This document shows positions 17,355 to 61,000 of a stretch of DNA of 64,000 bases, in pieces. The notes beneath the pieces were generated by a model. The model made no database searches. It worked only from the letters and a program-made list of their open reading frames with translations, and was not told the origin of the DNA. Position 1 is the stretch's first letter. Each line of letters begins with the position of its first letter. This stretch comes from Nephromyces sp. MM_2019. Taxonomy: Eukaryota > Apicomplexa > Aconoidasida > Nephromycida. Position numbers and translations under genes: made by a program. The stretch spans positions 80,278 through 144,277 of the forward strand of contig JADHZB010002150.1 in assembly GCA_015657535.1 (NCBI GenBank), given 5' to 3'.

Positions 17355-18317
17355 CTATATGGCTGCGGAAGTGAAGTTTCCAATATTAGATTGTAAGATT
17401 CCGATAATTAAACCAAAAATACCTAAAGTAGTGAAGTAAACATTATTTGTAGAATTAGAAAAATAAGAATTGAACTGGAAAAACAAGGAGACATATATTA
17501 AAGGGAATAAATAATGTCCATTTAATTGAACTTACCCAAAGCAGAAGCAAAAATTTCAATAATGAGCATTTTGATAAATAAATCAGCTCGTTGGGCATCC
17601 GCAAGTGCCGTACTGCTACCAGAAACGCCGACTGATAATCTAAATGATGGAGTGGGTTATTATTTTCAGATAAAAATTCAAAGATGTAGAGGAGTAAATA
17701 GTAAAACTAGTCAAGTGATTTTACCCGCAAGCAAGATTGGAAAATCCTACAGTTATTCCTGTCGAGAAAATGGCCCACCCTGCTACAATAGCATTGCCCT
17801 CGTGTGTAGGCATAGTGCCCCTAGTGGGGATAAAATCGGGAGGAATATCTGCCATTTTCCCGTTTAATAAAATAGCCATAATAAGTCCATAAATAGCTAC
17901 AGCTTCACAGAAGATGATGGAAATGAGGTTTTTGGATCTGATCCTAGGCGATTTAACAGAAGCGCCGACAATTGATGTACCACAAATGAAAATACCCCTA
18001 AAATTCGAAGGTTAAAACTTTATTAATTAATGTTAGCTACTTAGTCATTATAGAGTGTGCATCACTATTAAAACAGACATTGATATATTAACGCTAAAAT
18101 TCTTTGCGTTCCATAAATGTATAAATAAAGCCCTATGTATTTCCTAAGATACTAAAGGTTTGTAACGCAATTATCAAATAAGAAAGGCTTACCAAGCAGC
18201 TCCAACAATAGATACGCCTAAATTGATAGAAAGTCCAAAAAAGGCCCATTGATAAGGGCTTATCTGGCGAAATACATCAGACCAGCCAGTTAGTTCTTGT
18301 GCTGCTTCTGCTAACAT
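17355..18317 (-). CDS. ATP6V0B: V-type H+-ATPase proteolipid subunit c'' (VMA16), four exons
   Basis: Membrane rotor subunit of the V0 sector that carries protons across endomembranes. Exons: 18193-18317, 17725-17997, 17536-17639, 17355-17422. They sum to 570 bases (189 residues, stop TAG). Four hydrophobic helices are visible. Family marks: [20 protein letters not shown] at the start, [20 protein letters not shown] with [11 protein letters not shown] (helix with the essential acidic residue), [18 protein letters not shown], and [20 protein letters not shown] before the short last exon (FGLIIGIL). The N-terminal extension and the CEAVAIYG / ADAQ patterns mark c'' rather than the 16-kDa c subunit. 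The acceptor of exon 3 was placed at 17639 because only that site keeps [17 protein letters not shown] in frame. It faces the bacterial-type block. Confidence 0.95.
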
Positions 18318-19033
18318 TTTTTAAGATTAATTGAGCTCAGAGAAATAAAGTTTTGTCAGTATGTGAACACTGTAGTATTTCTGTGTTAATACTGCTAATA
18401 TATTACGACGATAATAGAATGATGAAAATGGAGAAGGTACATATGTTAATTTAGTTATATTTCTGCTATTGATTGAAGCCAGTTTCCTTCTTAAAAGTAG
18501 CTGAAGTTTTGTTAATTAGGACGAAGAAATTGAAACATACTCAAGTGTGGTTAGAAAGTCCAAAGATAAGGCAAATTATCAGATTAGTATCTTTTAATGG
18601 TTATGTCGAGTGAGAGGTTATAAGAAGTTAATATAAACTAGTTTTACGAGTTTCTGATACTATTCAAATAAAAAAAATTGAATCAAAAAACACAACAAAT
18701 TAAAAACAAGATCTTATTTCAAATTTTGAAGAGGGCAGACTACTTACATTTAACACTCGAGCTAAGTTTTTTATTACTGATATATGTAGGTAGGTTTTGT
18801 TAACAATGGTAATATTGTAGGGCGAATGTTATTACACCTTTAAATTCATATAGATTGTTACGTGAAGTCAACTTCTAGTGTTGTGTGTTCATGTTTAAAT
18901 TAAATAGGTTAGATGTGAATCAAAAACCACAGTGTAGCTAGTGTAGAAATAGTGCTAACAGCAAATTAAAAATGTTAAGATTCGAATAAGTGAAGCACAT
19001 GCATAAGTCAAATAAGGAATGATAAGAATAAGT
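18318..19033. other. Left border zone of the bacterial-type block
   Basis: Contains the V-ATPase c'' promoter and the transition to bacterial-type DNA. No terminal inverted repeat, target duplication, tRNA or transposase was recognised, so the exact junction cannot be placed; I estimate it between about 18.6 and 19.03 kb. Confidence 0.45.
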
Positions 19034-19607
19034 TTAGATAGGTAAATATTGTCCTTCTTTTGTTGAAGGGTCTGAGTGTTTTTGCACTTCTAAAGTATAG
19101 TCTAAAGCAGATTTATTTTTATTATCTTTTGCGGTAACATTAGCCCCAACTCTAATCATTGCGAGAATTTTTTCTGGATTAGGTGCATTCATAGATTGAA
19201 CGATTAAAGGGGTTTGTCCTAGAGAATTACATTCATTTATCTGCGCTCCGTGATTTATCAAAAAATGAAATACATCAAGACTATAGGTATTAACGATCAT
19301 AAATTCATTTGGATATTTATCGTATTTGAAATTAGCATCTGCTTTAAATTCTCTTATAAGCATTTCTAATGTTTCTGTGTTTCCAAAATGAATGTGATCA
19401 GATAGTTTTACTAAGTGAAATAGCATTATATTGGCATCTATACCATATTCTATTAATTTTTTTATTTTTTCTTTATCATTCGTAAATAATGCTTGTAAAA
19501 AGGGATTTTTTATAATCTGTTCTAAATCATTTTGAGAAAATGCGGAAATATTAATAGTTCATATTTAGTGTAACTATTGTAAGTATGAAAATTATTTTTT
19601 TAATCAT
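19034..19607 (-). pseudogene. Secreted ankyrin-repeat protein, frameshifted after the signal peptide
   Basis: Short ankyrin-repeat protein of bacterial type. The frame from the ATG at 19607 reads MIKKIIFILTIVTLNMN, a good Sec signal peptide, then meets a stop. One base out of register, the frame reads on from SAFSQNDLEQIIKNPFLQAL through LIEYGIDANIMLFHLV and ankyrin helices including GAQINECNSLGQTPLI and GANVTAKDNKNKSALDY to the stop at 19034. A single extra base at about 19555-19562 accounts for the break. The intact form would be about 190 residues. The start ATG overlaps the stop of the upstream ORF (ATGA), a bacterial coupling arrangement. An internal ATG at 19426 leaves only 130 residues without the signal. 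Ankyrin proteins of Rickettsiales are often secreted host-interaction factors; that role here is inference. Confidence 0.75.
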
Positions 19608-19801
19608 TCTTTAAAATTCTTTTTTACATTGTTCCATAATTTTTTACCCTTTTGTAGTACATTTGGGTTGGTATTGTTTACATTTTGGTCAAGTTGTACC
19701 TTTATTTGGCTTGGGTCTATTTTAGAATTGTCAAATCTCTTTTGTAGATCTTCTGCATTTTTTCTTCTTGCATATAATATACTTTCGTTATTTTTGCAAC
19801 A
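19604..19801 (-). pseudogene. Small ORF of 65 residues without start codon
   Basis: Open frame CCKNNESILYARRKNAEDLQ…LWNNVKKNFKE ending in TGA at 19604-19606, overlapping the ankyrin start by ATGA. It is closed upstream by TAG at 19802-19804 and has no ATG, so the 5' part is probably lost to a frameshift or stop. The sequence is charged and helical in its first half, Asn/Gln-rich later. I do not recognise a family. Its tight coupling to the next gene argues that it was a real bacterial gene in the same operon. Confidence 0.45.
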
Positions 19802-19930
19802 CTATAATATATTGTTAATTGAATGGCAAATAAATTTTTAATAACTTTTTATTAAAAATTTAAGATTAACTTTGTGTAAATAAAAACTGATTTTTGTTTA
19901 ACGTAAAAACTCTCTAGCATTACACAAAAC

Positions 19931-19957
19931 ATAACATACATAACTTATGTATGTTAT
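19931..19957. promoter_or_regulatory. Perfect 13-bp palindrome with 1-base centre
   Basis: Arms ATAACATACATAA (19931-19943) and TTATGTATGTTAT (19945-19957) around a single C. It lies in the gap between the minus-strand ankyrin operon and the plus-strand ribbon-helix-helix/replication genes, which is where an operator or an origin-associated binding site would be expected. No U-run follows, so a simple terminator is less likely. Confidence 0.6.
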
Positions 19958-20112
19958 ATAAATAAATAGCATACTACTCTAATCCTTAATTTACAATACT
20001 TAAATTTAATTTATTTAATAAAATAATTAGTACATAAATTGTGTATATTGTATATAAAAATCTGTTCATTTGATTTTTGCCTTGAATCAGCATAATCTTA
20101 ATATAAGTTTTG

Positions 20113-20156
20113 TACTACAAACGCTAAAAAGTGAATGTAAATCTTATACTACAAAC
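20113..20156 (+). repeat. Direct repeats TACTACAAAC, iteron- or operator-like
   Basis: TACTACAAAC occurs at 20113-20122 and again at 20147-20156, 34 bases apart (centre to centre), about 20-60 bases before the ATG at 20177. The second copy is preceded by AAATCTTA and the first by a related AGTTTTG. Such repeats before a replication or partition gene often bind its product; this is inference. Confidence 0.4.
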
Positions 20157-20176
20157 ATAAATAAGTTAACAAATTA

Positions 20177-20584
20177 ATGAAAAGAATCTCATGTTTTTTA
20201 TTCGAAGAGGAATTAAAAATGCTAGAATTAATAAAAAAGAAGGGTTTAAGTAAAAAAGTAATTACTAAACCTAGTTTTATAGTACGTACTGGACTTCAAA
20301 TAATGTCCAAATTAGATATAAGAGAGATTTATAAAAATGAAAATCACAGTAATATTTAAAATAACTATTATTTAAAAAGAATACCTAGTAAAACTTCCCA
20401 AGGAAAAATATTAACTTTTATATTAGATGAAAAAAGTAATAAATTTATGCACGAAATATTAAACCAAGCTATCTTAAATAAAACTGTATTAACTTTAAGT
20501 GAAATAATACGTAATAGTATAAGATATGTATCACAATTAAATGAATTAACCCTTCAGGAACATTTTCAAAATCTTAATAAGTAA
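20177..20584 (+). pseudogene. Tandem ribbon-helix-helix-like plasmid protein split by in-frame TAA
   Basis: The frame from the ATG at 20177 runs 60 codons to a TAA at 20357-20359, then continues open in the same frame to TAA at 20582-20584 without any new ATG near the start of the second part. The two halves look alike: RISCFLFEEELKMLELI…FIVRTGLQIMSKLDI and KILTFILDEKSNKFMHEIL…EIIRNSIRYVSQLNEL. Each has one short strand followed by two helices, the layout of ribbon-helix-helix DNA-binding domains (CopG/Arc/ParG type). So the ancestor was probably a double-domain repressor or partition protein of about 135 residues, interrupted by one stop. An alternative is two separate small genes, the second with a non-AUG start. 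Assignment to the fold is inference. Confidence 0.55.
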
Positions 20585-20601
20585 ATTAAGAAATAGCTTT
20601 C

Positions 20602-21201
20602 ATGATGTTATCTATCCCTAATAAGCATTTACAAGTGATGCTCAATTCCGAAAAATTGAGTTTTATAGAAAGGTTACTTTACGTAAATCTAGTGCTGCTA
20701 TCATTAGAAAATGATGTAATGAATAAAAATTATTTTTGTCAAATAGCAACAAGCGCTCTTAGTGAAATGCTCAACATTGCTCTTGATTCTGTTCTACAGA
20801 CCAAGAAAAAGTTAGTAAAAAAAGATCTATTAAAAATCAAGAAAAATTTTAGTGCCTTTAACACGCCCTCAGCAGATACTTTTTTTCCTCAAAGACCTAG
20901 TATTGAAGATTTAAAAAATACAAAAAATGTTTTAATAAAGATAAATAGTCAATCAATATTCAAATTATTTGCTACAAAAAAGCTAAAACCCCCTGACAAA
21001 ATTATCATGCTATTTTTGTTAGTAGAGTCTAAAAATTTTAAAATCTTTTCAAATAAAAAAGAACTACTTAAAAAATTTAAAATACACAGAGATACATTCA
21101 ACAACGCACTAAAGAAGCTTGAATTTCTAAAAATGTTAAAAGTAGTGCCTCAAGCAGGAAAAATATTTGAAATACAGATCAAAAATTTAGAAATTGACTG
21201 A
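20602..21201 (+). CDS. Winged-helix replication-like protein, 199 aa
   Basis: Begins 18 bases after the preceding frame (ATG at 20602, or the adjacent ATG at 20605) and ends in TGA. Two parts are visible. Residues about 1-75 hold SFIERLLYVNLVLLSLENDV and LSEMLNIALDSVLQTKKKLVKK; residues about 115-195 hold DKIIMLFLLVE…KKELLKKFKIHRDTFNNALK KLEFLKMLKVVP. Both resemble a helix-turn-helix followed by a wing, as in plasmid RepA/RepB-type initiators. No intron and no internal break. I do not recognise a named family; the neighbourhood (ribbon-helix-helix protein before, a similar protein after, iteron-like repeats upstream) suggests a replication initiator or its regulator. Confidence 0.6.
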   Translation: MMLSIPNKHLQVMLNSEKLSFIERLLYVNLVLLSLENDVMNKNYFCQIATSALSEMLNIALDSVLQTKKKLVKKDLLKIKKNFSAFNTPSADTFFPQRPSIEDLKNTKNVLIKINSQSIFKLFATKKLKPPDKIIMLFLLVESKNFKIFSNKKELLKKFKIHRDTFNNALKKLEFLKMLKVVPQAGKIFEIQIKNLEID

Positions 21202-21265
21202 AAGGAAAAAATACGCTAGATTGTTATAAAGTAAAAACATATCAAAACTAGCGATATTTTACAAA

Positions 21266-22062
21266 ATGTATAATAACACTGTATCACAAAAAATACAAGG
21301 ATCCCTTGATCCTAGAGATTGGGAACCTACTAAACAAGAGTCCAAAATCAAGATTTCCGGGGAATTTGGGGAAAAAATCCATAATTTGCCAAAACATATC
21401 ATGACACCGAAAGAGAAGGTTTTGTATATAAGGCTTTATCTTTTCGAAATCATGAATATTTTTCAGTACGGCAGATGTTATGCAGAGGTATCTTTATCTC
21501 ATCTATCAAATACGATTTGTTCTCATACAGAAACAATCACCGAATTATTGAAAAAATTACAAAACAAGGGTTTTCTTAAGAAGACCCTAGAAAAACGTGA
21601 TGACGGACAATTTGATAGAGCAAAGATTGAAGTTACAGCACCAAATTGGTTCTCGGATAACTTGAGTTGCTATAAGCACGCAGATAAAGAAAAAAATTTT
21701 TTTGATGCGTTCTATAAAGAGTTATTTATTTTTATTCCTAAAGAAAAAATAGATAACATTTTACAGTCTAAAATTACCTCTTCGGCTAAGTTATTATTTT
21801 TACATTGTTTCTGGAATCCTACAAAAACAAAATAAAAAATAAGAAGGAAAATTTACAGTGTTTCGTACAACATAAGGCTTTATCAAAAAAAATAGCTTTA
21901 AACAGAATAACAATTTCAGCTGCAATGAATTCTTTAAATGAGAAAAAATTCATCAAAGTAACTCAATTGTTGTTTCAATGGAAGGTAGAGATTCCTGCAA
22001 ATGTTATAGACATAAAATACTACTCTGCATTAGAGACAAGGGATTGTGAACTACCGTGTTAA
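21266..22062 (+). pseudogene. Second winged-helix replication-like protein, frameshifted
   Basis: The frame from the ATG at 21266 gives 189 residues ending at 21835. A +1 frame picks up from about 21805 and runs to 22062 (…QHKALSKKIALNRITISAAM NSLNEKKFIKV…), which is the expected second helix-turn-helix and wing. The switch lies in an A-rich run at about 21820-21845, so one indel has split a protein of about 260 residues. The first half contains KHIMTPKEKVLYIRLYLFEI and SLSHLSNTICSHTETITELL KKLQNKGFLKKT, a helix-turn-helix of the HTH_36 / MarR-like winged type. The layout repeats that of the gene at 20602, so the pair may be an old duplication. Family not firmly recognised. Confidence 0.55.
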
Positions 22063-22106
22063 AAAAAACTAACACCTAGTCATATACCGCTAACACATAA
22101 TATTAA

Positions 22107-22688
22107 AAGGAAAATAAAAAAAGATATCTGAAAGATTTTTTAAAAGATAAAAGGAAGAAGTCTCAAGAAATTTTAAAAATTTCAAAAAAAATCAAGGAGT
22201 CACAAAAAATTTCGGCAAAAGAAACTCTGTTTTTACAAAAAAATTCAGAAAGAGGTTTTTCTAAAGAAGAAATTGAGCAAATTTTAGAAAAAATTCAAAA
22301 AAAAGTGTTTTGGGAAAAATTGATTTTCAAAAACAGGCAAGCTTTTTTGTGTTATCTAGTAAAAATTTTAAAATTTGAAAAAAAAGAAGAAAAAAACATT
22401 TGGATAAAAAAACAAAAACAAGAAGAAAAGAGAGAAAGGAGGAGACAAGAGCAAATGTGCCACACAAATGGTATTTTTAGGCAAATCTTAGAAGGTTTGA
22501 ACGAAGAAGAATGGGAAAGGATACCAGAATACATGTTGGACAATTTTAAGGTGTTCCAAAAAGGAACTGATGTGAGTTTCTACTGCAGTATGAATTTTTA
22601 TGAAAAATATTTTCAAGAACACGGAATTTTTTCTATGTTTGAACGAAAGCTAATAAGTATGGGCTACAAAATGAGAAATCCTAGCTAA
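22107..22688 (+). CDS. Unknown basic, Lys/Glu-rich protein, start unclear
   Basis: Open frame of about 193 codons from the stop at 22104 to TAA at 22686-22688. No ATG occurs early; a GTG at 22305 would give 127 residues. The first two thirds are extremely Lys/Glu-rich and should be coiled coil (DKRKKSQEILKISKKIKESQ and KKQKQEEKRERRRQEQ). The C-terminal 70 residues look globular (ILEGLNEEEWERIPEYMLDN, SFYCSMNFYEKYFQEHGIFS). An AAAAGGA sequence at 22104-22110 may be a ribosome-binding site for a start lost by mutation. I do not recognise the protein. It ends just before the RuvC-like fragment. Confidence 0.45.
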   Translation, partial: KENKKRYLKDFLKDKRKKSQEILKISKKIKESQKISAKETLFLQKNSERGFSKEEIEQILEKIQKKVFWEKLIFKNRQAFLCYLVKILKFEKKEEKNIWIKKQKQEEKRERRRQEQMCHTNGIFRQILEGLNEEEWERIPEYMLDNFKVFQKGTDVSFYCSMNFYEKYFQEHGIFSMFERKLISMGYKMRNPS

Positions 22689-23023
22689 GTCAGGCGTGGC
22701 TAGAGAACATGTTTGCCAATAACAATGTTTCTACAGTCTTTTTCAAGGACGTGCGTGCACATAAAGGCACTGCAGAAGCACACATGTACGGGGGGTTTGT
22801 GGCAATACTATTAACCACCTGCGAGAAAGAAGGTGTGGAGTTTGAGTCTGTGCCTGTTGGGACAATAAAGAAGCATATTTGGTCTTCTACGGGGATAAAA
22901 TGGCTGTATTTTGGCACAAAGGTTCGTGACTCAACAAAGAAAGGGTTGGAGAAAAAAATAGAGGTGCAGAAAACTCATGAACTTAAATGTACTATTTCCA
23001 CGACGGCAATTTACAACTTTTAG
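22685..23023 (+). pseudogene. RuvC-like nuclease, C-terminal part only
   Basis: The frame opens after TAG at 22682 and has its first ATG at 22709. It reads AWLENMFANNNVSTVFFKDV then RAHKGTAEAHMYGGFVAIL and EFESVPVGTIKKHIWSSTG, the middle and C-terminal pattern of phage- and plasmid-type RuvC-like (RNase H fold) Holliday-junction nucleases. The usual N-terminal DLGTxTGWA strand with the first catalytic Asp is missing, since the frame is closed just upstream. The fragment is about 105-112 residues against about 150-170 for the family. It is therefore probably inactive. Similar nucleases are common next to relaxase genes on alphaproteobacterial plasmids. Confidence 0.65.
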
Positions 23024-23110
23024 TAGATGAAACCCCGTAGCCAGCCAGGCCTGTTTTCTACTATTGTCCTTAATAGAAAATTATGCTAATGTTTGTTTAT
23101 AAATTTTGTT

Positions 23111-23152
23111 TTTTTATACGCAATACGCAAACTATGTTTGCGCGTATAAAAA
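23111..23152. terminator. Long bulged hairpin upstream of traA (terminator or oriT-like)
   Basis: Arms TTTTTATACG (23111-23120) plus CGCAAAC (23126-23132), a TAT loop, then GTTTGCG (23136-23142) and CGTATAAAAA (23143-23152). The result is a 17-bp stem with a five-base bulge (CAATA) on the left arm. Flanking T and A runs would make it a bidirectional terminator. It sits 75 bases before the relaxase gene, the usual place of an oriT, so a transfer-origin role is an alternative. Confidence 0.55.
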
Positions 23153-23227
23153 GCTGATAAAAGGGAAAAATTTTTCAAAAATTTCCCAACAACTCAAAAG
23201 AGAAAAAAGATATTTGTTTGTAAAAGG

Positions 23228-25644
23228 ATGGCGATACAATTTGCAAGGATAGAATTTGTAAATAGAGCAAAAGGAGGAAGAGCTTGTATAAAAGGAGCGT
23301 ATAATTCAAGAGACAAAATACAGGAATTGTGCAGTGGGAGAATTTTTCATTTTAAAGATAGATCTAAAAATTTGTATCATAAAGTATTTTTACCTGAGCA
23401 TGTTGATAGGAAATTTTTGGATGTTTCAGAATTGATGAATGAAGTGGAGAGATGTGAAAAGAAAAAAAACAGTAAGTTGTTGAAAGAAGTAGTGATTGCG
23501 TTACCGAAAGAGGAAGAGGTTGGAGATAGAGGAAGGGAGAAGATATTAGAAGACTTCATAAATAAAATGGAATGGGTCAAGGAAGGGCTTGGAGTGCAGG
23601 CAGATATACACCCTCCTCACGGAGAGAGGGAGGTGAATTATCATGCACATATTTTGATCACAACCAGAAGATTTAGGAGTGATGGTTTAGGTTTAGGAGC
23701 AAAGGCTCGAGATTTAGAACCTAAATTTAGAAATGGAGGAGGACAAAATTTCATAGTGAAAGAGGATAAGATGATTTCTGAGAAATTTAGAGAAGTGCAG
23801 GAAGAGTATTTTCGTCAAGAAGGGCTAGATTTGAAAGTGGACGCTATCTCTAGATATCCTGAAATAAGAATTGGACCTAAAAGATTTAGGTCTGAGAATG
23901 CGGCAAAATTGGTTAAGATAAATGAGGAGAGAAAGCTTCGCAATGTGCGCGAGATGATGAAGGATCCAAGTTTGGTTTCGGAGAAGATCAGCGAGAGACA
24001 ATTGTTTTTTACAAAAAGTGATGTGCGTAGGTTTTTGTCTCGATATGAGATAGAGTCTGAGGGATTAGTAGAGAAAGTGGTTGGTTCGTCTAAAGTGACT
24101 GAGTTAATACATGTAAACGAGTATGGGAATGATGAAAAATTTTTAGGGCAATATGTGAGAAAAGATTCTTGGAACCAAGTAGAGAGGATTCTAAGAAATG
24201 CTGAGAAAATATCTCGTGAGTGTAAAAATGTAGAGCTTAGCAACTCCCTTACAAGGAGTTACATAGGGGAGAGAGTAAGGGCGATTGCTGGACATAGAAA
24301 ATATGATGAAGAGTCTAAAGTTGCTTTATATAAACTTGCTATTACAAATAGTGGAGTCAAGGTTTTACGTGGGGCCGCTGGTACAGGTAAGAGTAGAGTT
24401 TTAGTAGATCTTGCGGATTATGTATATTGTGATTATAAAGTAATTTGCATAGCACCTACGAACAAGGCGGTAAATGAGCTTCGCGAAAAGGGACTTTCAA
24501 ATGTTGAGACAGTATCTAGATTTTATGGAAATTGGAGAATGGTAAGAGCTCGGTTGGGAAAGGTAGTATAGTTATAGTGGATGAAGCTGGCATGGTTGGT
24601 AATGGGAGTTATGATCGTCTGCTTAGTCTTGCTGTTAAGAACAAATTATCCTTAATTTTGAGTGGAGATGAGAGGCAGTTATCGTCTATAGAGAGGGGAG
24701 GAATATTCGATAGAATCTATCAAGAATATAATGTAAGCGAAATAACTAGAATCAAGAGACAAAAGGGCGATCAGAATATAAAAGTAGCTAAATTGCTTGC
24801 CGATGGAGATATATTCGGAGCTCTTCAGTCCATGAATACAAATCAACAGATATATCAAAGAAGGGATCATGAGCATTCTATAGATCTGCTTTTGCATAAT
24901 TGGACAAATAGTAAATTTGACGTAAAGGATAGGTTGGTTTTAGCAGTAAGCAACCAGGAAGTAGATTTGTTAAATTCGAAGTTAAGATTTCAAGCATTTG
25001 GAGATCGTGGAGAGGTATTTTTAAAGAAAGAAGCTGAAGGGCGATCTGTTATGGGGGAATGTATTAAGACTAAGATTTGGGGCGAGCATTACACAAGGGG
25101 AGAGAGGATAGTATTTACAGGCAATAGTAAGGAGCTAGGTATATACAATGGAGATTTTGCTACAGTTGTGAGCATTAGAAAGAGCGATGTGAAGTTTGTA
25201 GTAAAATTAGATCGAAATGGAGCTTTAAGAGAGTTTAACCCGAAAAAATTTGGAAAATTTGAATACGATTATGCCTCTACAGTATATAAGGCTCAAGGGG
25301 CTACAATAAAGGATGTGTATGTATTGCACAGAGGTTATGGAGATAAGAAAAATAGTTATGTAGCCGGGACACGACATTCTCATCAAATGTCTCTTTATGT
25401 AAATAAGATAAGTACTCCAGATTTGTACACATTGTCCTTGCAACTCGGAAGTGACAGGGAAGTGATGATTAGCAGGAATTACAAAGCGATAAATAATTAT
25501 GAAGGTATAAGACTATCTATTCTCTGCCCGATAAAGTCACTGCGGTGGCTTTATTCATCAAGCAACAGGATGTATAAAAACAAAACAGCGGGTTTAATGT
25601 TTTTATTTGCTTCATTGCTTAGTTCCGTTATTGTTAATATATAA
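23228..25644 (+). pseudogene. traA: TraA relaxase-helicase (Ti type), one frameshift
   Basis: Conjugative relaxase that nicks oriT and unwinds the transferred strand. The frame from the ATG at 23228 gives 447 codons; a second frame (from about 24532) gives 370 more to TAA at 25642-25644. N-terminus: MobA/MobL HUH domain with IKGAYNSRDKIQELCSGRIF, HPPHGEREVNYHAHILITTR (metal-binding HAH at about residues 138-140). Helicase: Walker A GAAGTGKSR (about 384-392), then, in the second frame, Walker B VIVDEAGMVG, SGDERQLSSIERGG, and the late motif DYASTVYKAQGATIKDVYVL. The break is at about 24528-24532: one missing A in GGAAATTGG would join RFYG to KLENGKSSVGKGS. The split falls between Walker A and B, so neither half is a working helicase. 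Closest in style to TraA of Rickettsia and relatives. Confidence 0.88.
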
Positions 25645-26319
25645 ATGCTATGTCACCTAGATATAAGTAACCGTTATTTGTTTTTAATGTATTAATGTAT
25701 TCACACTTGTAAGGCTTATAGAAACAGCATAAGCATGTTTCCTTTTAATGAAAGAATTACAATTCTTTCTAAAACTATTGGTTTTAGCTTCACTCTACAT
25801 AAATAAATCGGTATTTACTTTAAACTTGTAAAGATTTATATATGCTGCACATAACTTGATTTATAGGAAATGGGACTAAAAACTTGATCTCGGATCAATT
25901 TTTAATGATCCAGAACATGTTCTATCATGTATCAGGATATTCTTAAAGCATAAGCTTGTACTATTGAAAATCTAGACTTACTTTAAAAATATTAAAGTGT
26001 TGTAGCAGTATATATATACTAAATGTATCTAAATGTGTAAACACTATAACACACAAAAAAAAAAAGCAATTTGGATTTTAAAAGTAAAAGAGCTCAAAAC
26101 ACCGAACAAAGCTTTATGTAAGTACTTATTTAATATTTAACAAAAACATCTTTCGTAGTTATTACCTTACTTTGCTACCTTTAGAAGTGGGATACAATCT
26201 AATACATACACAAAGCTAATATTTAACAACACCCTTTTAACATTATTATTAATAAACATATTTGGAGCTTATGAATCATAAATTATATTAATTTTTAATG
26301 CGATTCGCACACACGCAAT
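25645..26319. other. Right border zone of the bacterial-type block
   Basis: From the traA stop to the aminotransferase start. It must contain the right junction and the aminotransferase promoter. A 12-base poly-A run lies near 26056. No repeat matching the left border was recognised by eye. Confidence 0.45.
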
Positions 26320-29300
26320 ATGTCAACAACACAAATTGAACCTTCCAAATCTTTACAGGTTAGCAACACAATTAAATGCTAAAGAAAATGGAAATAATAT
26401 CTATTAAATTTATATTAAGTAGATATAGTTAAAAACACTTGAAGATTAACAATTCATCTATTTTATGTACACAAATTAATCACTCATTTTTAGGGTGGTT
26501 AGCTCACATCCTATATATACATACATATATATATACATATGTATTTTAGGCCTACATATTACATACTCATCTAATGTGTATTTTTACATCTCGTATTACA
26601 TCTTGTGTATTAGATAAGCCTATATAACATCTATAGATGCATATTGGTATATATTTTGCTTACAACATATATATATATAATCTATCTATAGGAGGTATTT
26701 GCACCTGAATCGGCATCTGTACCACCCAATCCAGAATTGAATTTGTAAGCTACATTGTTTCCTCCGCACATAATTTACTACCACTACTTTTTACACACTT
26801 AGTATCCCACTATCAATTGGAGACCCTTCCTATGGAGGAATACTAAACCCACCAGACTTTATTGAAGATGTTATAACAAAAAGCATCAAATCTGGAATGG
26901 TAAAATCATACTTCAAGTTTCAAATTCAAATAAAAACTTAACAATATTGATTCATTCACAGTTTAATGGCTATGAAAAGACCCGAACTGGATTTACAGCT
27001 TCAAGAGAATCCATTGCAAAGAGGGTATAATTATGTCTCATAACGTATATATGCAATTAGCTTATAACTTGAAAATAGTGTAAATATCACATAAATATAT
27101 ACTTTCTAATATTCATCACATCTTAGATTTATACACTCGTATCACAAACATTATAACACTTCTTTCTTAAACTTTACATATACCAGTACAAATTTTACTC
27201 TTAAACATACATACACACAGATACACATTCTCTATCAAACAAACACACTTACACATTCACATTCCACTTTCAAAATACATACATACAAGCATATACTCCC
27301 CTATAAAACACATATATACACACATACAACACACTCATAAACACTATTAGGCAAATGATATTGGATCACCTGTCACACCAAATGATATTATTATCACATG
27401 TGGATGTAGCCAGGCCTTAGATATGGTTTTCAATTCTATGGTGTCAGCCAATAATCAAGATGAGTATGTTTTCCTACCCAAGCCATGTAACAATTTTTAA
27501 GGAGATGTAATCTAGTCACTCACACACCTTTTCCTCCCTTAGCCTTTTTCCTCTACAGAATGATCTGTGACACACATTACCTAAATTACATGTACTACAA
27601 TCTAAACCCCAAAGATGAATGGAATATTGATTTGGATGATCTCGAGGCGAAATTACAAAAATATAAGTGCAAATTATTAGTAATTTGCAATCCTATGAAC
27701 CCGACAGGTAACATACCCGATATATATTTCTTATTATCCCTCAATTTCTGATCATGAATCAAATGAAATCAAGTTTTCCTGTGTGTACCCATATATTGTT
27801 TTGTACACACACATGATTTTCATATTTTTAATTTCAGGATCTGTCTTCTCCCTGGAACATTTACAAACATTCTTAAGCCTTGCAGAAAAATTTAACTTGA
27901 CAGTCTTAACAGATGAAGTGTACAATAATTTAACCTGGGGGGGTAAGAAATATATACCCTTAGCCTCCTTGAAGTCCAGCGTACCCATTATTGAAGTAAA
28001 TAGTTTATCAAAACAATTTATGTATCCTGGGCTAAGGACTGGCTGGGCTGTTTTTCATAGTAAGTGTGAAGACAAATTTAGTGAGGTATGGAACAATATA
28101 CACTTATTTATGGTGTGTATTTTGTACGCACACCTTACAAAATAATTGTTATACACTTTTATACTTCAATCACTTTAAACACACATATATTTAGTTGCAT
28201 TCCCCAAACTCGTTATTTAAGGGATGAACCCATTAGCTTAGTTATACATCCTCTTACTTATTTTACTTACAAAAATATATTTAAATGAGCCAATTATTTA
28301 CTTAGTTAATGCACACCTGGGTGGGATTTTTATACATAATACACAATTAGGTCCCTTATAAGATCCTAAACATGAATTCATAAAAGATATTTATACACAT
28401 ACAAATTTGAGAGTCAATATTTACAAATTACATAACTCATCCGAAGTATTAAGATATCCTTAAAGCATTGTTAAATATAACCACACACAAACTCTTAACG
28501 CACAGCAGACAATATATTCTCCCAAACATTCTTAGGTTAAGAGGGTACTGAAATCAATAAACGTGACTGAGGGACCCCCAGTAATTTTTCAGTCACTCAT
28601 TCCGCACTTATTAGAAGATACTCCCAGTTCATACTTTGAAATGAATTGTGTAAGTTATTTTTGCACATTTCCCACTCTTTTACATATTTTACAAATACGC
28701 TTTTCGCACTTCTTTACTCAAGGATATCTTGGCAAAAAATGAGAAAATTGCACAATCTGAATTTAGAGGTTAATTTCTTTTATGTTTATATATATTTTTT
28801 ACTCATTATACACTATATATATAATTTGTATACAAGCTAACAACATATACTATAACCTCCTTGATTACACACGAAACCCTACATAATTTACACACTTAGT
28901 CCACACACCGTTCACATTCAACTCCACCCACATTTAATTGCAAACACGTTTAACTCCTCACGCCCCACATACTCAACTCAATATCCTCCTATTAACTAAT
29001 AGTCCATATTAAACATTACACATCCCTACACATTCAAATTATATGCTCAGCCCCACACATGCATACACAAACTCATTTCAAAAATTTTCAAGAGATACAC
29101 ATTATTGAATACAAATATGCTATGTGTGCATTATTAGACGTCATCTAATTATTTAGAATTAAAAATAACAGCATATCCAACATTACTGTGTTTATAGAAT
29201 GCCCTGCTTTGACATATATCCCCTCATATGGTGCTATGTACTGTATGCCAAAAGTCAATCTTGAAAAATTGGATATAAACACAACCATCGAATTTGCACG

Positions 29301-29821
29301 AAAATTAATGCAAGAACAATCTGTGGGCGTTTTCCCAGGAGAGGTAGCCTTTTTTATTTATGTCTTTTATATTATGTGTTTATATGTGTAGCAACTCGAA
29401 TTTCACTGACCATACCTTATTTAAAAGACTCCTATTCAATTTTCTTTTCTACTTTAAATTATTAAGCTATCTTATTATTTATACTATGAATAACAAACAG
29501 CACACGTATGCTTAATTACATTAAGCACACAGATAAATCACACTTTATATTCAGAAACAAGCATCTAATAAAGATCTTACAAGCATTTTTTATCACACAT
29601 TCACAAAGTTCATTACCCACATCTACTTATTACACAAATACAAACAAAAAGTATTATAACCAACATCACAGCCATTACATATACATCACTTATAAACACT
29701 ATATTTTATACAGGCTTTTGAAGCGAGTGGCTACTTAAGAATTGTTTTAGTACAATCTGAGGAAAATTTCAAGGAGGCCTGTTTAAGGATAAAACAATTT
29801 TGCCTTGACCACACAATATGA
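26320..29821 (+). CDS. Tyrosine-aminotransferase-like class I PLP enzyme, 11 exons
   Basis: PLP-dependent transaminase, probably of aromatic amino acids. Exons: 26320-26358, 26692-26744, 26803-26899, 26962-27024, 27351-27463, 27559-27707, 27838-28085, 28536-28649, 28723-28768, 29198-29343, 29714-29821. Sum 1,176 bases (391 residues, stop TGA). Motifs: LSIGDPSYGG, NPMNPTG, TDEVYNNL (PLP Asp about 197, Tyr about 200), SLSKQFMYPGLRTGW (Schiff-base Lys about 230, Arg about 238), terminal substrate-binding region VGVFPGE. No targeting signal at the N-terminus (MSTTQIEPSKSLQ). Problem: exon 5, if ended at 27463, skips sequence encoding YVFLPKP and, one base out of register, HVTIFKEM (to 27506), which matches the conserved VPRPGFPLYQ segment of the family. 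So the gene may carry a one-base frameshift at about 27475-27490, or truly splice past it. Confidence 0.85.
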
Positions 29822-30299
29822 TTATTTTTCTTTTTAAATTTTTAGTATAAATGTTTGTATATGTATATAACTATGAATAATTTCTGATTATCCTAATCAT
29901 ATATTTGACCATCCGTTTTAAATCAATAAATATAAAAAAGGTCTATAAATTGATTATTTAATAATAACAGTATGTGATTATGATTTTAAAACATATTTTT
30001 TTAAATCCAAGTTTAATGCAGTGTATGAAACTCAAACTTGAATCAAGAGATATTTACACACTAATATTCATAATATAAAATATTTATTAGTAAAAATAGG
30101 ACAAGTTCGAAATATTATACTATACATACAAGCTCCCCAAGTTAGGAATAGCACATATGTATACAAACTCAGAATTTCTCAAAACAATTAAATAAGTTTA
30201 TAACAAGTTTTTTCTTCTTGTTTGTGTGTAAAAGAAGAGAAAAATTCAAGTCATATATATATCTCTATACACACAGTCCTATACATTTAAAATTCGTAT
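29822..30299. other. Convergent 3' spacer, aminotransferase / RPL7
   Basis: About 480 AT-rich bases between two stop codons; polyadenylation regions of both genes. No other feature seen. Confidence 0.5.
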
Positions 30300-31748
30300 T
30301 TACATCATCCTAGACACTAATTTGTTGATGAGCTCATCACGATTACCCCAATCTCCACCCTTGACTTCACTGAAACCGTGTCTTTTTGCCTTAAATCCTT
30401 TCTTTGGGCTACTAAGTTTAAAGGGCCAAAGAAAGTTGGTAACTTGCTTAAAGTTGGGTCCACATGTGTAGATTTCATTGATAACATCTTCCATACCATA
30501 TATACCATATTGAGATAAATTTTCTTGGATGATTTCATTGGTGGTTATCCTGATTCTTTGTCGTGCACCTGTAGGGCCTACACGGGCATATCCCCTCTTG
30601 TAACACAATTGTTTGATCATCTTGAGTGAAGGAGTACCATAAGTTACATAAGGTTGGATGAATTTGAGCATTTCATTTGTAGCCTTGTTTAGCTTGAGAA
30701 ATACACCGTTGTGTATTTGTCGTAGACGGAATAACTTGAGGATCAATTTTGGTTTTGGAGGTAATTTGTTAATACCTCTGATCCTTACTACAAAAACAAG
30801 GGGGGTTTCAGGTTTTTTATAAAAGACGCCCAAACTCTTGGCTTGTCTTAAGGCCTCCATTTCTTCTTTTTGTTTGGTTTCGTATTGCTCGGCATACTTG
30901 AAGGCACGTTCTTCATTTTGCTGTTTATATGTTTCTTGCATCTGCAAAGGGTTAGGGGAAGTGTATAGTAGGGGTATATTATGTATTGTTTGTTAGTAGG
31001 AATGTGTGTTGCATGTCATCAAAGGTTTGGAATATAGATATATGTTGGTATTGTTATGATTTTGGTGGGTGTTTCGTGGGAATTAGAATATATATATATA
31101 TATGTAATTTAGAAATTGAGTGAGTGTGGATGTAACGTGTATAAATACATATAAGGTTCGAAATGTGGGCTGTATTACTAGCTAGGATCATAATGATGTA
31201 AATATTACAAGTGTAGTATGTGTATAAACAGTGAAAGAAATAAACTTGTGCGTTAAACAAGAGTTACATGTAAAGCTAAAGAATAGGTGTACATGATATT
31301 AATAGAGTAAGTAATGTAATAAAATTCAAGTGTGTGTATGACCTTGGCTTTAGCTTCGATAGCATTCTTTTTCTGTTCGGCGACATGTTCATTTCTTTCC
31401 ATTTTCTTCTTCATACCCTCAGTCATTGGGGTTTCGAAGGAAGAAGTTTGATTGCTCACAAGATATCTATCCTGTAAGTATAAATAACATAAATAAAAGA
31501 TAAATGAATTCTTTGCTCAAAGCAGGTAATTGTTCATTTGTGTGAGATAAGAACATAAATGTATTAGGGATTATGTAACAGCGCAAATCATACTCATATG
31601 CCGAATAATTCCCCATGTAAACAATGAGAATAAATAAGTAACTCAGTTTATGTTTCATGGCATTATGAGGGTATAGGGTTAGACAAGGAATTTTGGGTGA
31701 ATTGTAGGTGAAGAGGTTAATAAATGAATTGAGTGTACTTACAGCCAT
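30300..31748 (-). CDS. RPL7: 60S ribosomal protein L7 (uL30), three exons
   Basis: Structural protein of the cytosolic large ribosomal subunit. Exons: 31743-31748 (only ATG GCT), 31343-31471, 30300-30941. They sum to 777 bases (258 residues, stop TAA); family members have about 240-260. The N-terminus is basic and helical (GMKKKMERNEHVAEQKKNAI); the body shows LVFVVRIRGINKLPPKPKLI, LRLRQIHNGVFLKLN (here LFRLRQIHNGVFLKLNKAT), MLKFIQPYVTYGTPSLKMIK, and the ending NFLWPFKLSSPKKGF typical of L7. The six-base first exon is unusual but both splice sites are good (GCT|GTAAGT and TTACAG|GAT) and frame is kept; ribosomal protein genes often have an intron right after the start. Confidence 0.95.
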
Positions 31749-37023: not shown

Positions 37024-40000
37024 ATGAAATTTCTATTATTTCTCATTTTTTATTTAGCAAATGTGTATTCTAATGAGGCCACAAAGGCCTCTAATAAATA
37101 CTCATATAACGACATTTATAAGGAGGCTTTAGATATGGAAGATCAAATAATCTCAGTGCGACGAAATTTGCACCAACATCCTGAAACACGATTTGAAGAA
37201 CATGAAACATCACAAATTATTAAAGATTTTTTAAAGGTGTGTGTGTATGTGTGTATCTGTAATTTTCTAGTTAAATAAAAATAAATATTTGAATTCGTAT
37301 ATGTGTTTGTATAATAAAATTTTTTATTAAAGTTGCTTTATACATGTGAGTGTGTGTGTACATGTGTATGTGTGTTTAGGCATATAGGTATAGTTTTTAT
37401 TAAAGGAAAAAAATATTCGGGCTTGTTTGTATGTGTGTATAGAGTGTTGGATGTGAGAACTTAAACACTTCATTGTAAATTATTTTGAGTTTGTATGGAT
37501 ATTTTAAATTTACAATCCGTATATTTGTGTAGGGTGTTGGGCTAAGTTGCACTGGGCTTGTGATTATCACGTGTTTATTTATTTATGTGCACACAAAATG
37601 TGTGTGCATATCATAGATTTATTTTATATATACACACCTTGTTTATTAATATACATATTCATATTTATATACATAGATTTAACACACACATATTATATAG
37701 ATGTAGGGATAATTATTTGTGTATGTGTGCATATATTTATATGTGTGCATATATATTTATGTCTGTGCGCAAATATTTACGTGTGTGCATACATATTTAT
37801 GTAATACGTACATGTCTGTGTAGCATATGTTTACGTATAAATAGATATGTGAATATGTATAGAATTGGTGAGACTATAATCTTATCAGAGAAAAACTAGT
37901 GTATAAACTCTTAGTATCAATTTGAAAGCATTACACACCATATAGAGATATACACACTTAATTTTGGGCTAAAGTTAATGGATTTTCACACTTGCGTATG
38001 TATGTTATATAAATTCAATCGATTTATGACCATACTTGTGTTGTGTTTGTTTTAAGGATTACAATATATCCTACACAGGTGGATGGGGTATTGATTATTT
38101 TAACAACAATCGAGGTGGAACTGGGGTAGTTGCTGATATTGGGTCGGGTGAACCACCGTGTGTTATAATTCGAGCTGATATTGATGCTCTTCCCATAACT
38201 GAAGCCGTAATGCTTTTTTTTATATAGGGAAAGGGAGAGGGGAATTGGGTAGGGATATTTGGAGTTTGAGTATGTAAGGAGGAAAGGGATAGTTGGTTTT
38301 TGGGTGTATGAGATTTAGTCGGGCAGGGTAGGAATTTGGGTATTTATAGGGTATGTTCAGGGTGTGATGTAGTTTTGACGTATGTGTGAGTGGGATGGGT
38401 GCATTTTGGTTCTATGTACACTTTGGGTATGCGTGCGTTTTTAGATTGTGTTTATCTAATATACATAATATATATCTCATTTTTATATTTACATAGACAG
38501 ATATACCTTTTAAATCTACACACCCTGGTAAAATGCATGCATGTGGCCATGATGCACACACAACCATGGCTTTGGGTGCTGGTATGATATTAAAAAACCA
38601 TGAAGATGAACTTGAGGTAATTTAATGCACACTTTAAATTAAAAATCTAACGAGAATTTGTAGATTTGATAGATCAGATTATTCACACACATTTCTAAGC
38701 GCCCATCAAAAACTAATTTTAAATTCTTGATTTCTCGGAAAATTTTACACATTTTTGTTTTATATTTATGGCCTCCACTTTTGGAGCAGTATTTCAAGCA
38801 CACAAGTGCATAATAAACAACCTCCCCTGTTTATTGAATGACAGCATGAACCCGTATATAAATTTAAGATTTTCCTCTTATTAGATGATCTTTCACACAT
38901 ATATATATTCTAAACATCTCTCTCCCCATTAACTAGATGGTTTTACACACACCTGTAAATAATGGAGATTGCCACTTTTTTTCCGAAATATTTAAACACA
39001 TCATTTTATATTTTAATTCCTTGTTTTTCTAAACTCTTATTCACACATTTTTCTGTATTTTTCCAAAAACATTCAGGGTACAGTACGTTTAATGTTCACA
39101 CCTGCAGAAGAGGGCGGTGGTGGTGTAAAATTAATGTTAGAAGAAGGTGCACACCTCAAATACCCACCTGCTCAGAGAGCCTTCGGATTTCATGTAATGA
39201 ATTTCTTACCCACTGGTTTATTAGCCTCTAAATCAAAATCTCTCACAGGCGGAGTTGACCAGTAAATTTGTAGTTATACATGTGTGTGAATATTTTTACC
39301 TATGTGCGTGTATATATATACCTTGATTCATAGTTGTAATCCTATCTAACACATTAAACACTTTTATAACATTTACTATACACACACTGATATTCAAAAC
39401 AATTTATATTTACACTTAAGAAAAAATTAGAGATATATATTGATGTATGTGTCTATATGAGAATTGTATATAAAAAATATATCTCTCTACACTTTACTAT
39501 TATTGCTATAAATATGTGTTTGTTTTTTCCTTATTGTTGTGTTTGATTTGTCAATCTGGATATAAATGTATGTACAATTTTTTTAATATCCCTACATAGT
39601 AAACATTGATACAAATGTGTATATGACAACAATTAATTTTACGATGTATATAACAACCACAAGTATCCACATTTTTCTATATTATCACGATTTTTAATCC
39701 GTGTGTGTAAAATACAAGCAATTTACAGTTAAAGTTTTTGTTCGTGAATTAATCTCAATATTATTTTTGTATTTACAATCATCTTACTATAATTTTTGTG
39801 CCCACAATAGTCTTACTATCAAAGTTAGGGGTCTTGGGGGGGATAGTGCTTTACCTCATATGACTATTGACCCAGTCCCAGCCTCGCTCGCTATTGTGAG
39901 GGCTCTCTATGATATATATGCAAGAGAGACATATTTCCACGAGGAACAAAGTGGCCTGGTTGGAGTTACACATTTTGATGTAAGGATGAATTTAAGATAC

Positions 40001-41399
40001 ACACTCACGCACCCACTCAAACACTCACTCAAGCACTCACTCACGTACAACACACCCGTGCAGACACACCCATACATACACCCCCCCCTACTACACATAT
40101 ATATATATATACACACAAACACATACACAAATAATTTAACTCCATTCTAGTGTGGAAATGGTGAGGTGGCTATCATACCTGATGAAGTATTGATTGGAGG
40201 CACAGTCCAAGGTATGCGTACAAAGACACTGAATCGACTAAAACGGCGAATAAGGACGATGGTTGAGAATATAGCCAAAGCCTATGAGTGTACTGCTACA
40301 CTTACACACCGTGACATTCCTTATAGTGCTGTTGAAAATGACCCTGAAGTTTTCGAATTCTATAAAAAGGTAAGAAACAAACAAAGCATGCAAATTTATT
40401 TTAAATAACCAATTCTACAAATTGATATACAACACACCATTGATTGATATTATATATATATATATTAATATATCAGATAATTGATTCACACAGAACACGC
40501 AGATACATACACATTGATATAAATGACTTATGTATCTTTATGGATACAATTACAACCCTTTAGATATCTATATACACAACCTAAGCACACATAGAACTAA
40601 CTATATCTATAAATTACACACATCCAAACTTACAATTCTATAAGAAACTTCTCTCATGATATTTATTAAATACTCCCCTGTAATAATCATGTTTTTATTC
40701 TTCACCATTTATACACACTACACACACAAACATTATAACACACTTAACATTGCACCAATCCTCACACCTATTTTAGACTGTTGGGCAAGCATCAAGTTCA
40801 GGGGAAATTACAATTGTAGATGCGACATTTGGTGGAGATGATTTTGCATTTTATAATGAGATTTTTCCTTCTGTTTATTCAGGAATCGGAATAGGGTAAC
40901 GTGTACATATCCCTGAGTATAGCTTAATTAATTCGCATATTCACTCACCAAAAGACTTACATAAATATATACTATTCAAATATACTTATGTATATCTACA
41001 TCTATCTAGACCAATCTTCTAAATCTATATACTCGCATGTAATATTGACCTATACTCCTGAACACATACAAACACTCTACACACTGATTTCCATATCTAA
41101 ACATACATTGTACTACACCTTGTTATCCAATCTATATTCTCCTCGCCTCATCTATATTAAATCCCAAAGCCACAAACACACATTAACACCCCCCCACACC
41201 CCCCTCCCGACACCCCCTACACACATATATATATAACTTGATTAGTTCGGGAGGTGAAATTCCAGGACATCCACCTACAAATGTGTCTGTACACAACGCC
41301 AATTTTTGTTTGGATGAAAGAGTGCTTGCACATGGATCAGCCATCCATGCACATTCTGTTATACAGTCAATTGAAGACCTTAAAAATAAACAAAAATAA
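37024..41399 (+). CDS. M20D metallo-amidohydrolase, array copy 1, eight exons
   Basis: Zinc amidohydrolase of the hippurate hydrolase / IAA-amino-acid hydrolase (ILR1) family; cleaves an acyl group from an amino acid. Exons: 37024-37236, 38057-38206, 38497-38616, 39077-39261, 39811-39979, 40151-40369, 40777-40895, 41246-41399; 1,329 bases, 442 residues, stop TAA. Signal peptide [16 protein letters not shown], so probably secreted or vacuolar. Metal ligands: Cys and His of [10 protein letters not shown], Glu of TPAEEGGGG, His of FGFHV, His of [12 protein letters not shown]. Odd: the lid-domain motif that reads GxGGHxAxPHM in the other copies is [11 protein letters not shown] here, so the conserved His is replaced by Asp. 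This is the most divergent copy and may have changed substrate or activity. Start is ATG at 37024; the upstream TTG is not needed. Confidence 0.94.
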
Positions 41400-58050: not shown

Positions 58051-61000
58051 ATGTACAAACATTTAGTAATAGTTGCGTGCATGTGCATGTGTGTGGGGGA
58101 AGTGTTTGGCGAGCCAGCAAGTAGTAAGTCGTTTGAGGAGATATTTGCTGATGCAAAGGGTGCAGAAGACTACTTCATACAAACACGCCGTACTTTCCAT
58201 CAGCACCCCGAAACGCGTTTTGAGGAGTACGAAACCTCAGAACTAATCAAGCAATTTCTCCAAGTAAAAATTCATCCTCTATACGTTTATATTGAGTGCT
58301 TTTTGGGGTTAGGTTGGGGTTAGTTTGGGAGACAATTAGGGGGCATATTCTTGGGGACTATAAGAAGTGTAATATGTGAAGTTTGTAGGGATGTTTTGAG
58401 GGAATTTGGTAACCCTTTTTGTAGTCCTCCTGGCAGTATTGGGGTGGTGTTGGTGTTTGTAATTTACAAATTGTTTTGGGAGCTTTGGCATATTATACTG
58501 TTGTGTTTTTTAAAGGGTTCAGGGGCCACTCTAATGCTGTGATATTTGGTGGCTTTTTGGGGATGCTGGGATTTTTTTTGAGGGATTTTAGGGGATATTT
58601 TCTTGTAGTTTGGAAGGGGAAGTGGAGTATATTTAGGGGAGTGTTTGGAGGTGCATTTTGAGATATTTTAGGGTGCATTTGGGAAAAGCACTAGTACAAT
58701 CGTGTGTGTTTTGATTTACTTTTATTATTCGTTTAGGGAAATCCTTTGCTCATGTTTTCTCATTATGTTTTAGTACTACTTTGGTGTGACATTTTCAGAG
58801 TGTAAATTAGTTATATGAGTTATCCCATTATTTAATTATTACACTTTTAATCCATAGTTTAAGAACACTGGAGATAATTCCTTGATTCATGCCATGTACT
58901 ACTATGTATTTGGAATTGTAATAGAATTTAGAACATAGGTTACTTTATGTGTATCCGGGAGTGCTTATTTATTGCTAAGATAACTATTCAATGTGTATTA
59001 GCTTGTAGAAACCCAATCACAGTATGATCTCAAAACTATGTTAAACTTGTCAACATAAAATATATATTTAAAACATTTAGGGATTTATTGAGCAACATCC
59101 AGATATATTTATATATTACAGACTTATATGTGCACAACACACTCATGTATATTGTATAATATTAATCCATGTTTGTATGCTTTAATATCAACCTTTTTAT
59201 CTATACATTTGTACACTTTTCTTAGCATTATCTATTCTAACATAGAATATGAGTATATATAAGCACTGGATTGTAATTATATTCACATTTTATCAATAAT
59301 TATGATGTCTGTAATACAGGAAAACAACATCACATATACTGAAGGATGGGGTGTTGATAAATTTAATACTAGTCGAGGAGGTACTGGTGTCATAGCAGAT
59401 GTCGGTACAGGCCATCAGCCCTGTGTAATCGTTAGGGCTGATATTGATGCTTTACCTGTCTTTGAAAAGGTTAGACAATAAAATATATGTGATATACACA
59501 ATTCTAAGATATACTCTATATAGCACAGTTTGTTTTTACATACACCCATTAAATAAGCCAATGAAGCTTTGAATATTTTATATATATATATATATATTAT
59601 TTACACACATATTATTATAAAACTAGTTATGAGAATCATTCACTCAATTTATTTAGACAAAATTTGATTTCAAATCTACACACCCTGGAAGAATGCATGC
59701 CTGTGGACATGATGCACACACAACCATGGCTCTAGGTGCTGCATACTTAGCTAAACAATATGAAAGTGAGATGGAGGTAACTCTTTACACATTTCATATC
59801 TATTGACTTAATACGCTCTAAATAGGTGTGTATAATTTTGTGACGTATAAATATGTGTGTATATAATTAAAATACCCATACGCTACATTAAGCCTTGAAT
59901 ATTTATGTGTGTGTATGTATAAATTAAATATTTTTTCAGGGTACTATACGATTTATGTTTACACCTGCTGAAGAAGGCGGTGGTGGTGTTAAGATGATGA
60001 TTGATGAAGGTGCATTGGACGTGCATCCAAAACCTCAGAGGGCCTTTGCTTTTCATATATATCCAGCTTACCCAACTGGTACTGTGTATACCAAACCAGG
60101 TGTATTTTATGGTGGTGTTGATCAGTAAGTTTATATAATTTTTTTTACACAAATACATATCTTAGTAAAATTTATACATATTATATACCTCATAATATCG
60201 AACAGTGTGTCGATATTTATAAATGGAATGTATCTATACTTACATATTTGCTCTAGGGTAAATTACTCATTTCTAAAATAATTTATTTCTTTCTATAGTA
60301 TTTATAAATGTAACTATGAGCCCTATGAATGTGTATTATTAATTCAAAATAATTTTCTTTTGTAATGAATCTACACACTGGGTGTGTTTTGACACAAAAT
60401 GAATTTAGTTTACAATCGATTTGCACATATTAAATGTGGAGATTTCGGTACTGAGAAAACCTTTTCTCAGAATAGATGCACACTGTGTGTTTTCCTTGAT
60501 AAGATAAAAGATTCTTTGCATAATCGATATCCACACTATAAAGATGTTTATTAAAACCAAGAAATTGATCTTTTTCTTAATCAAACACACTCTTAAATTT
60601 GCTTCTCACAGTATTAAAATCATTGTTGAAGGGAGAGGTGGACATGGTGCTCTACCCCACATGACTATTGACCCTATCCCGGCCTCATTAGCTATTGTTA
60701 GAGCCCTCTATGATATTTATGCTAGGAGCACACACCCGCAACAAGCCCATGCGGGGCTCGTTGGTGTTACACATTTTGATGTAATCTATACATGGATATC
60801 TCTAATGTGCAAAATCATTGATAAAAATGTATATGTCTATCAAATTGGGTGCATAAACATCTGCTTGTGTGCGTGTTTGCCTATATGTAACCCTTGTATA
60901 TATTCAATTCTGTTTATCTTTCTAAGACGATTACTTTGAATTTATATTTTTAACTTTATACATATAGCCAAGAGAAAAACAAATCCATTTTAATATAAAT

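Follow-up and report, generated by a model that had tools for sequence, protein, structure and literature searches.

Bacterial endosymbionts are rarely carried by apicomplexans. Those of Nephromyces and Cardiosporidium are reported to be Rickettsiaceae, with a guanine-plus-cytosine (G+C) content of 29.1% in C. cionae (PMC7737231), so that a suitable donor of bacterial DNA probably lives in the same cell as the nucleus considered here. Single prokaryote-derived genes are on record in parasitic eukaryotes (PMC4053834), and the nuclear genome of Volvox carteri is reported to hold about 9 kb with four regions that resemble rickettsial genes, mostly incomplete and attributed to a Rickettsiaceae donor (PMC4324946). 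The stretch analysed here, called the window, comprises 64,000 nucleotides of Nephromyces sp. MM_2019 (assembly GCA_015657535.1) and corresponds to positions 80278-144277 of contig JADHZB010002150.1 (C1117; 170,350 bases). Between window positions 19034 and about 25590 (C1117:99311-105977), far from either contig end, lies a block of about 6.6 kb of bacterial genes. This block is probably part of a Rickettsiaceae mobile element, be it a plasmid or an integrated conjugative element, which was inserted in the apicomplexan nuclear genome and came from the organism's own endosymbiont or from a past one.

Central to this interpretation is that the bacterial genes are bordered by host genes to the left and to the right on the single contig C1117. 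The frames of the block are intronless and encode an ankyrin remnant on the reverse strand, a small split open reading frame (ORF), two replication-initiator-like proteins, a 193-amino-acid orphan, a RuvC-like fragment and the relaxase-helicase TraA. Domain and phrog matches bear out what the sequence-only reading of this DNA had described, namely intronless TraA, ankyrin and replication-like genes set between a multi-exon gene for V-ATPase subunit c'' on the reverse strand (exon 17727-18008, E 1.8e-23 against solved c'' chains) and an aminotransferase class I/II gene on the forward strand (exon within 27699-28145, E 8e-14). Outside the window, four of the ten largest ORFs in the fetched parts of the contig matched Pfam, all with families typical of eukaryotes (Seipin, DUF1751/rhomboid-like, WD40 and proteasome), and the other six gave no match. 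The block genes themselves are remnants: TraA has a frame change and a 3' truncation, the RuvC-like gene is without both ends, and other frames are interrupted. No convincing target-site duplication or terminal repeat was found at the block, and base composition was dropped as a marker of its boundaries, since a Markov test parts block (31% G+C) from host (28-30%) only weakly.

The two halves of TraA match the TIGR02768 TraA_Ti model with E 1.9e-47 and 1.3e-54, although at 162 and 186 bits both fall below the curated cut-off of 590, and there is no single open frame of usual length scoring above that cut-off, the gene being divided into two frames with its 3' part absent. Within these frames there is a MobA/MobL relaxase with its conserved tyrosine and histidines, which we take to be the catalytic residues, followed by a helicase with a Walker A motif. 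The frames 23228-24571 and 24532-25644 overlap and TraA was read across both, with homology in the second stopping at window 25446-25590 in 23 of 24 related segments and at 25212 in the remaining one. From the start of traA the open frame runs for 747-1799 codons in the 12 related loci measured, exceeding 1000 in 11 of them; in the block some 740-790 codons remain, in two frames.

The relatives of TraA point to the donor. A protein search returned 48 proteins, the named ones mostly from Orientia and the others from Rickettsia, Tisiphia, a Rickettsiaceae bacterium, a metagenome-assembled genome of Proteobacteria and one sequence labelled Ectocarpus; many, including the best four, are without an organism name. 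The comparison with plasmids that had been proposed alongside the sequence-only reading gave as its best record the plasmid pPCS148 of Ca. Megaira polyxenophila, with 40.8% identity. A single TraA sequence found no match in a genome collection, nor did TraA find one in a viral contig collection; a profile made from the TraA alignment recovered 33 loci from the genome collection, 23 of them titled Rickettsia, Rickettsiaceae, Rickettsiales or Orientia and the other ten alphaproteobacteria or proteobacteria, including one Chlamydiae and one Saccharibacteria. The tree had 43 rows, made up of the block TraA, the 26 loci out of 34 whose match was long and free of stop codons, 14 of those 48 proteins, and two outgroups from plasmids. 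In it the block TraA is sister to 35 other Rickettsiaceae-type rows, with support of 100/100 for the group that includes it and 99/97 for the 35 alone; its branch is long (1.36), which makes its exact position unsure. The TraA labelled Ectocarpus sp. 12 AP-2014, from a 2.4-kb contig, groups inside the Rickettsiaceae-type clade and would be either a contaminant or a sign that a brown alga, too, has such DNA in its nucleus.

The remaining block genes say less about the donor. The RuvC-like fragment is 45-50% identical over 62 residues to hypothetical plasmid proteins of Ca. Megaira and Ca. Bealeia. It had been read as a RuvC-like nuclease, and it does match a phage protein family, phrog_18320 (1.3e-10), but that family is of unknown function, the 'RuvC-like' phrog_159 reaches only 0.028, and its two closest relatives from plasmids match no RuvC family in Pfam, which makes this label the weakest of the set. 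Neither replication-like protein had a match by tblastn in the plasmid collection, and the first (20602-21201) found nothing in the protein database at E 0.001; the 21266-21835 frame of the second matches phrog_4221 with E 6.3e-4. Donor assignment therefore rests on TraA and, weakly, on the RuvC-like piece, and the TraA relationships support the block being bacterial DNA of Rickettsiaceae type. The proposal of an endosymbiont plasmid in the nucleus accordingly keeps its nuclear part, upheld by a Rickettsiaceae-type TraA on a eukaryotic contig and by the gene linkage described below, while a plasmid origin is one of two possibilities beside a chromosomal integrated element, since TraA relatives sit on long Rickettsia and Orientia contigs as well as on the Megaira plasmid.

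Coordinates of the block, its flanks and the right-side linkage marker (window positions)
Feature	Position	Strand	Evidence or remark
Host V-ATPase subunit c'' gene, left flank	17531..18317	-	Three exons seen; ATG at 18317
Left spacer	18320..19033	.	Composition weakly host-like; one copy found in assembly
Ankyrin-repeat protein remnant	19034..19558	-	Ank_2 E 1.6e-8; reading frame broken upstream of 19558
Two tandem 34-nt repeats, 74% alike, iteron-like by sequence	20100..20167	+	Two-copy repeats can arise by chance
Small ORF, split by in-frame stop	20177..20584	+	ORF reading
Replication-initiator-like winged-helix protein (O/DnaD-like)	20602..21201	+	phrog_345 3.1e-7; DnaD-like phrog_186 2.2e-6
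Second replication-initiator-like protein	21266..22062	+	Apparently two overlapping frames, 21266-21835 and 21805-22062
193-aa orphan ORF	22107..22688	+	No match in Pfam/NCBIfam; phrog_24775 (unknown function) only 0.018
RuvC-like nuclease fragment, middle third	22685..23023	+	Matches residues 51-112 of a 158-residue Megaira plasmid protein
Hairpin between RuvC-like fragment and traA	23106..23155	+	DNA fold z -3.84; 1 of 200 shuffles folds as well
TraA relaxase and first helicase part	23228..24571	+	PF03389 MobA_MobL E 1.2e-25, plus AAA_30
TraA second helicase part, other frame	24532..25590	+	AAA_30 E 1e-20 (ORF to 25644)
Right spacer	25645..26319	.	One copy in assembly for 25460-26320, traA end included
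Host aminotransferase class I/II, right flank	26320..28145	+	Exons interrupted; start codon 26320 inferred by reading
Host ribosomal protein uL30, right-side linkage marker	30300..30992	-	Protein matches

Is the join between block and host genes real? The assembly searched amounts to 48.28 Mb in 1127 contigs, some of which (C735, C548, C1090, C859) have a G+C content of 41-45%, against 28-30% for C1117 and C1018. C859, with 42.6% G+C over the part read, holds counterparts of window genes that have diverged (identity 53% for c'' and 63-68% for uL30), and there seems, from these sequences, to be a second apicomplexan genome of about 43% G+C in the assembly. When the 4,662 ORFs of C1117 were compared with C859:15001-50000 (35 of 94 kb), 17 matches were obtained, some of them short or weak. 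On C859 the c'' gene lies at 34.2-36.2 kb and uL30 at 30.4-31.3 kb, 2.9 kb apart, and three exons to the left of c'' are matched in conserved reverse order; no match derives from window 18,320-30,344, hence none from the block. In the window uL30 lies 12 kb to the right of c'' with the block between them. That c'' and uL30 are neighbours on a separate contig suggests that the flanks belong together and speaks against an assembly chimera. The same comparison lends no support to the idea that the DNA landed in a promoter region shared by c'' and the aminotransferase, because the nearest window gene found beside c'' on C859 is uL30 and not the aminotransferase.

A chimera, in which a piece of endosymbiont DNA was misjoined into a host contig, is improbable but is the most serious competitor to a nuclear insertion. 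The assembly appears mixed, with contigs of about 28-30% G+C beside those of 41-45%, and if it stems from the published Nephromyces data, these are described as PacBio sequence pooled from 150 renal sacs and processed with Canu, followed by Illumina and ABySS (PMC6320678). Such an error would nevertheless require two misjoins that left true host neighbours on either side, at a place where no repeat is known on which the assembler could slip; in DNA searches each flank, like the block, turned up once, and neither the element DNA nor a MobA/MobL gene was seen a second time, the block giving the only MobA_MobL match. Bulk contamination by a symbiont is thought unlikely, given that the assembly yielded no match for the few families asked, namely DnaA, the type IV secretion system (T4SS) coupling protein PF02534 and DDE_Tnp_1, and the only bacterial-type small-subunit ribosomal RNA gene found was that of the apicoplast, in a 16S search in which 5 of 358 candidates were scored.

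A number of observations weigh on the other side. The evidence for both junctions comes from the assembled contig. Other bacterial 16S genes are possible, given the 5 of 358 candidates scored, and because the DNA searches skip very common words, repeats of block or flanks are unlikely and their single copy is unproven. The G+C content of the block is close to that of the host, and the small frameshifts could stem from long-read errors left uncorrected. Between C1117 and C859, uL30 differs in its orientation with respect to c'', being inverted, and the 35 kb of C859 compared gave no match to the aminotransferase, so that C859 is no clean empty site and the locus has undergone rearrangement as well. 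TraA itself shows little decay. A set of 76 columns is conserved in 95% or more of the 35 other Rickettsiaceae-type rows; the block TraA breaks 13 of them, which is within the range of five outgroup TraAs (7, 8, 11, 14 and 19); when each of the 35 rows was left out in turn, 0-5 were broken. With so little sign of long neutral decay, we have either a recent insertion or DNA that still belongs to a bacterium, the latter as a chimera would have it. We infer that most of the divergence of TraA arose under selection while it was in a bacterium, from which it departed recently.

If the block is an insertion, by what route did it arrive? Conjugation-like delivery, whereby the relaxase of the endosymbiont piloted its own element DNA into the host nucleus in the manner of Agrobacterium T-DNA, had been put forward and is very unlikely. 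It has a precedent in Bartonella, which is reported to deliver relaxase-bound DNA into human cells, with TrwC promoting integration (PMC5572225), and the insert does hold a relaxase gene with the conserved tyrosine and histidines. A relaxase within the insert tells of the cargo, however, and not of how it arrived, and three family searches, covering 7, 7 and 6 ORFs of the block, recognised no mating-pair, coupling (TraD/TraG) or integrase gene, so that this route, lacking also a PF02534 match anywhere in the assembly, found no support. An origin of transfer (oriT) is expected upstream of traA. No recognisable oriT stands at either end of the block, the region upstream of traA is internal to it, and traA itself lacks one of its ends. 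The hairpin at 23106-23155 is, from its predicted fold, a possible candidate for an oriT or a regulatory element; scanning the regions ahead of 22 related traA genes for palindromes was uninformative, as the scan misses the bulged hairpin of the block itself. Were the conjugative reading true, it would represent a natural conjugation-to-nucleus event from a Rickettsiaceae symbiont to its protist host. Least credible of all is domestication, with the relaxase-helicase kept for a host function: the conserved residues of relaxase and Walker A are retained, but the helicase has changed frame, the 3' part is lost, introns are lacking and the RuvC-like gene has neither end.

The insertion of a mobile-element fragment into the nuclear genome would instead be accounted for by another sequence of events. 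A present or past Rickettsiaceae endosymbiont would have released mobile-element DNA, which would have been caught at a chromosome break by end joining, a route suggested by the lack of convincing terminal repeats or target duplication and of an integrase in the block. The block may coincide with or adjoin the c''/uL30 rearrangement, as capture during break repair would leave it, and its genes, being broken, would now be non-functional passengers that were recently captured. If this is true, the locus marks a flow of DNA from symbiont to nucleus in the Apicomplexa and preserves a trace of the mobile element of a past or present symbiont. It also carries a warning for the cleaning of mixed assemblies, in that such stretches should neither be excised nor called contamination before the reads are checked.

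Several further observations concern the host and its assembly; the relatives of uL30, an apicoplast and uricase genes point to an apicomplexan, probably Nephromyces. The nearest named relatives of uL30 are from piroplasms and Cardiosporidium cionae (62-68%). Contig C1009 is the apicoplast genome, recognised by eye from rpo, tufA, clpC and ribosomal protein genes with UGA read as W and by Rfam from its ribosomal and transfer RNAs, its first 7,271 bases having been masked; its 16S was accordingly rejected as a bacterium's. A partial Phage_integrase match (PF00589) at C735:11313-11534, the sole one in the assembly, was set aside as a second bacterial insertion, its surroundings suggesting that it is likely, if unproven, to be a eukaryotic exon, which we take to belong perhaps to an apicomplexan integrase gene. 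Within the window, the exons at 39698-40150 and 60508-60939 are alike and resemble an M20/IAA-amino-acid hydrolase dimerisation domain, only the second giving a match, and are probably host gene copies; two host ORFs compared with the PDB gave no match. Nephromyces and Cardiosporidium are reported to have purine degradation with urate oxidase, where other apicomplexans sequenced by 2018 have only allantoicase (PMC6320678). Uricase gave eight matches on three contigs, C1018 at low G+C (27.7%) and C548 and C1090 at high (43-45%), which suggests that both apicomplexan genomes in the assembly encode it; on C548 one open frame of 364 amino acids holds two uricase domains.

How, then, does the block compare with what has been described? 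Rickettsial insertions in nuclear genomes are already known from other hosts such as Volvox; no comparable block of endosymbiont DNA from the nucleus of an apicomplexan was among the matches listed from titles and the beginnings of abstracts in the open-licence literature. With the TraA_Ti/MobQ proteins of Rickettsiaceae elements (Ca. Megaira pPCS148, Rickettsia and Orientia) the block shares the order of a relaxase followed by a superfamily 1 (SF1) helicase, at about 40% identity, and differs from those elements in its shortened traA and in having no other tra gene recognised beside it. The account of Volvox (PMC4324946) offers the likeness of incomplete Rickettsiaceae-derived genes in a nuclear genome, but the genes there are housekeeping ones (16S, murB, ddlB and a fourth), as against mobile-element genes here, and the host is a green alga, as against an apicomplexan; the Volvox insertion is supported by the polymerase chain reaction over 13 strains. 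Transfers from Wolbachia to the nuclei of arthropods and nematodes are reported in many cases to be large and to include a substantial part of the symbiont genome, and their hosts are animals, whereas what they have in common with the Nephromyces block is the nuclear insertion of DNA from an intracellular symbiont of the Rickettsiales (PMC4299567).

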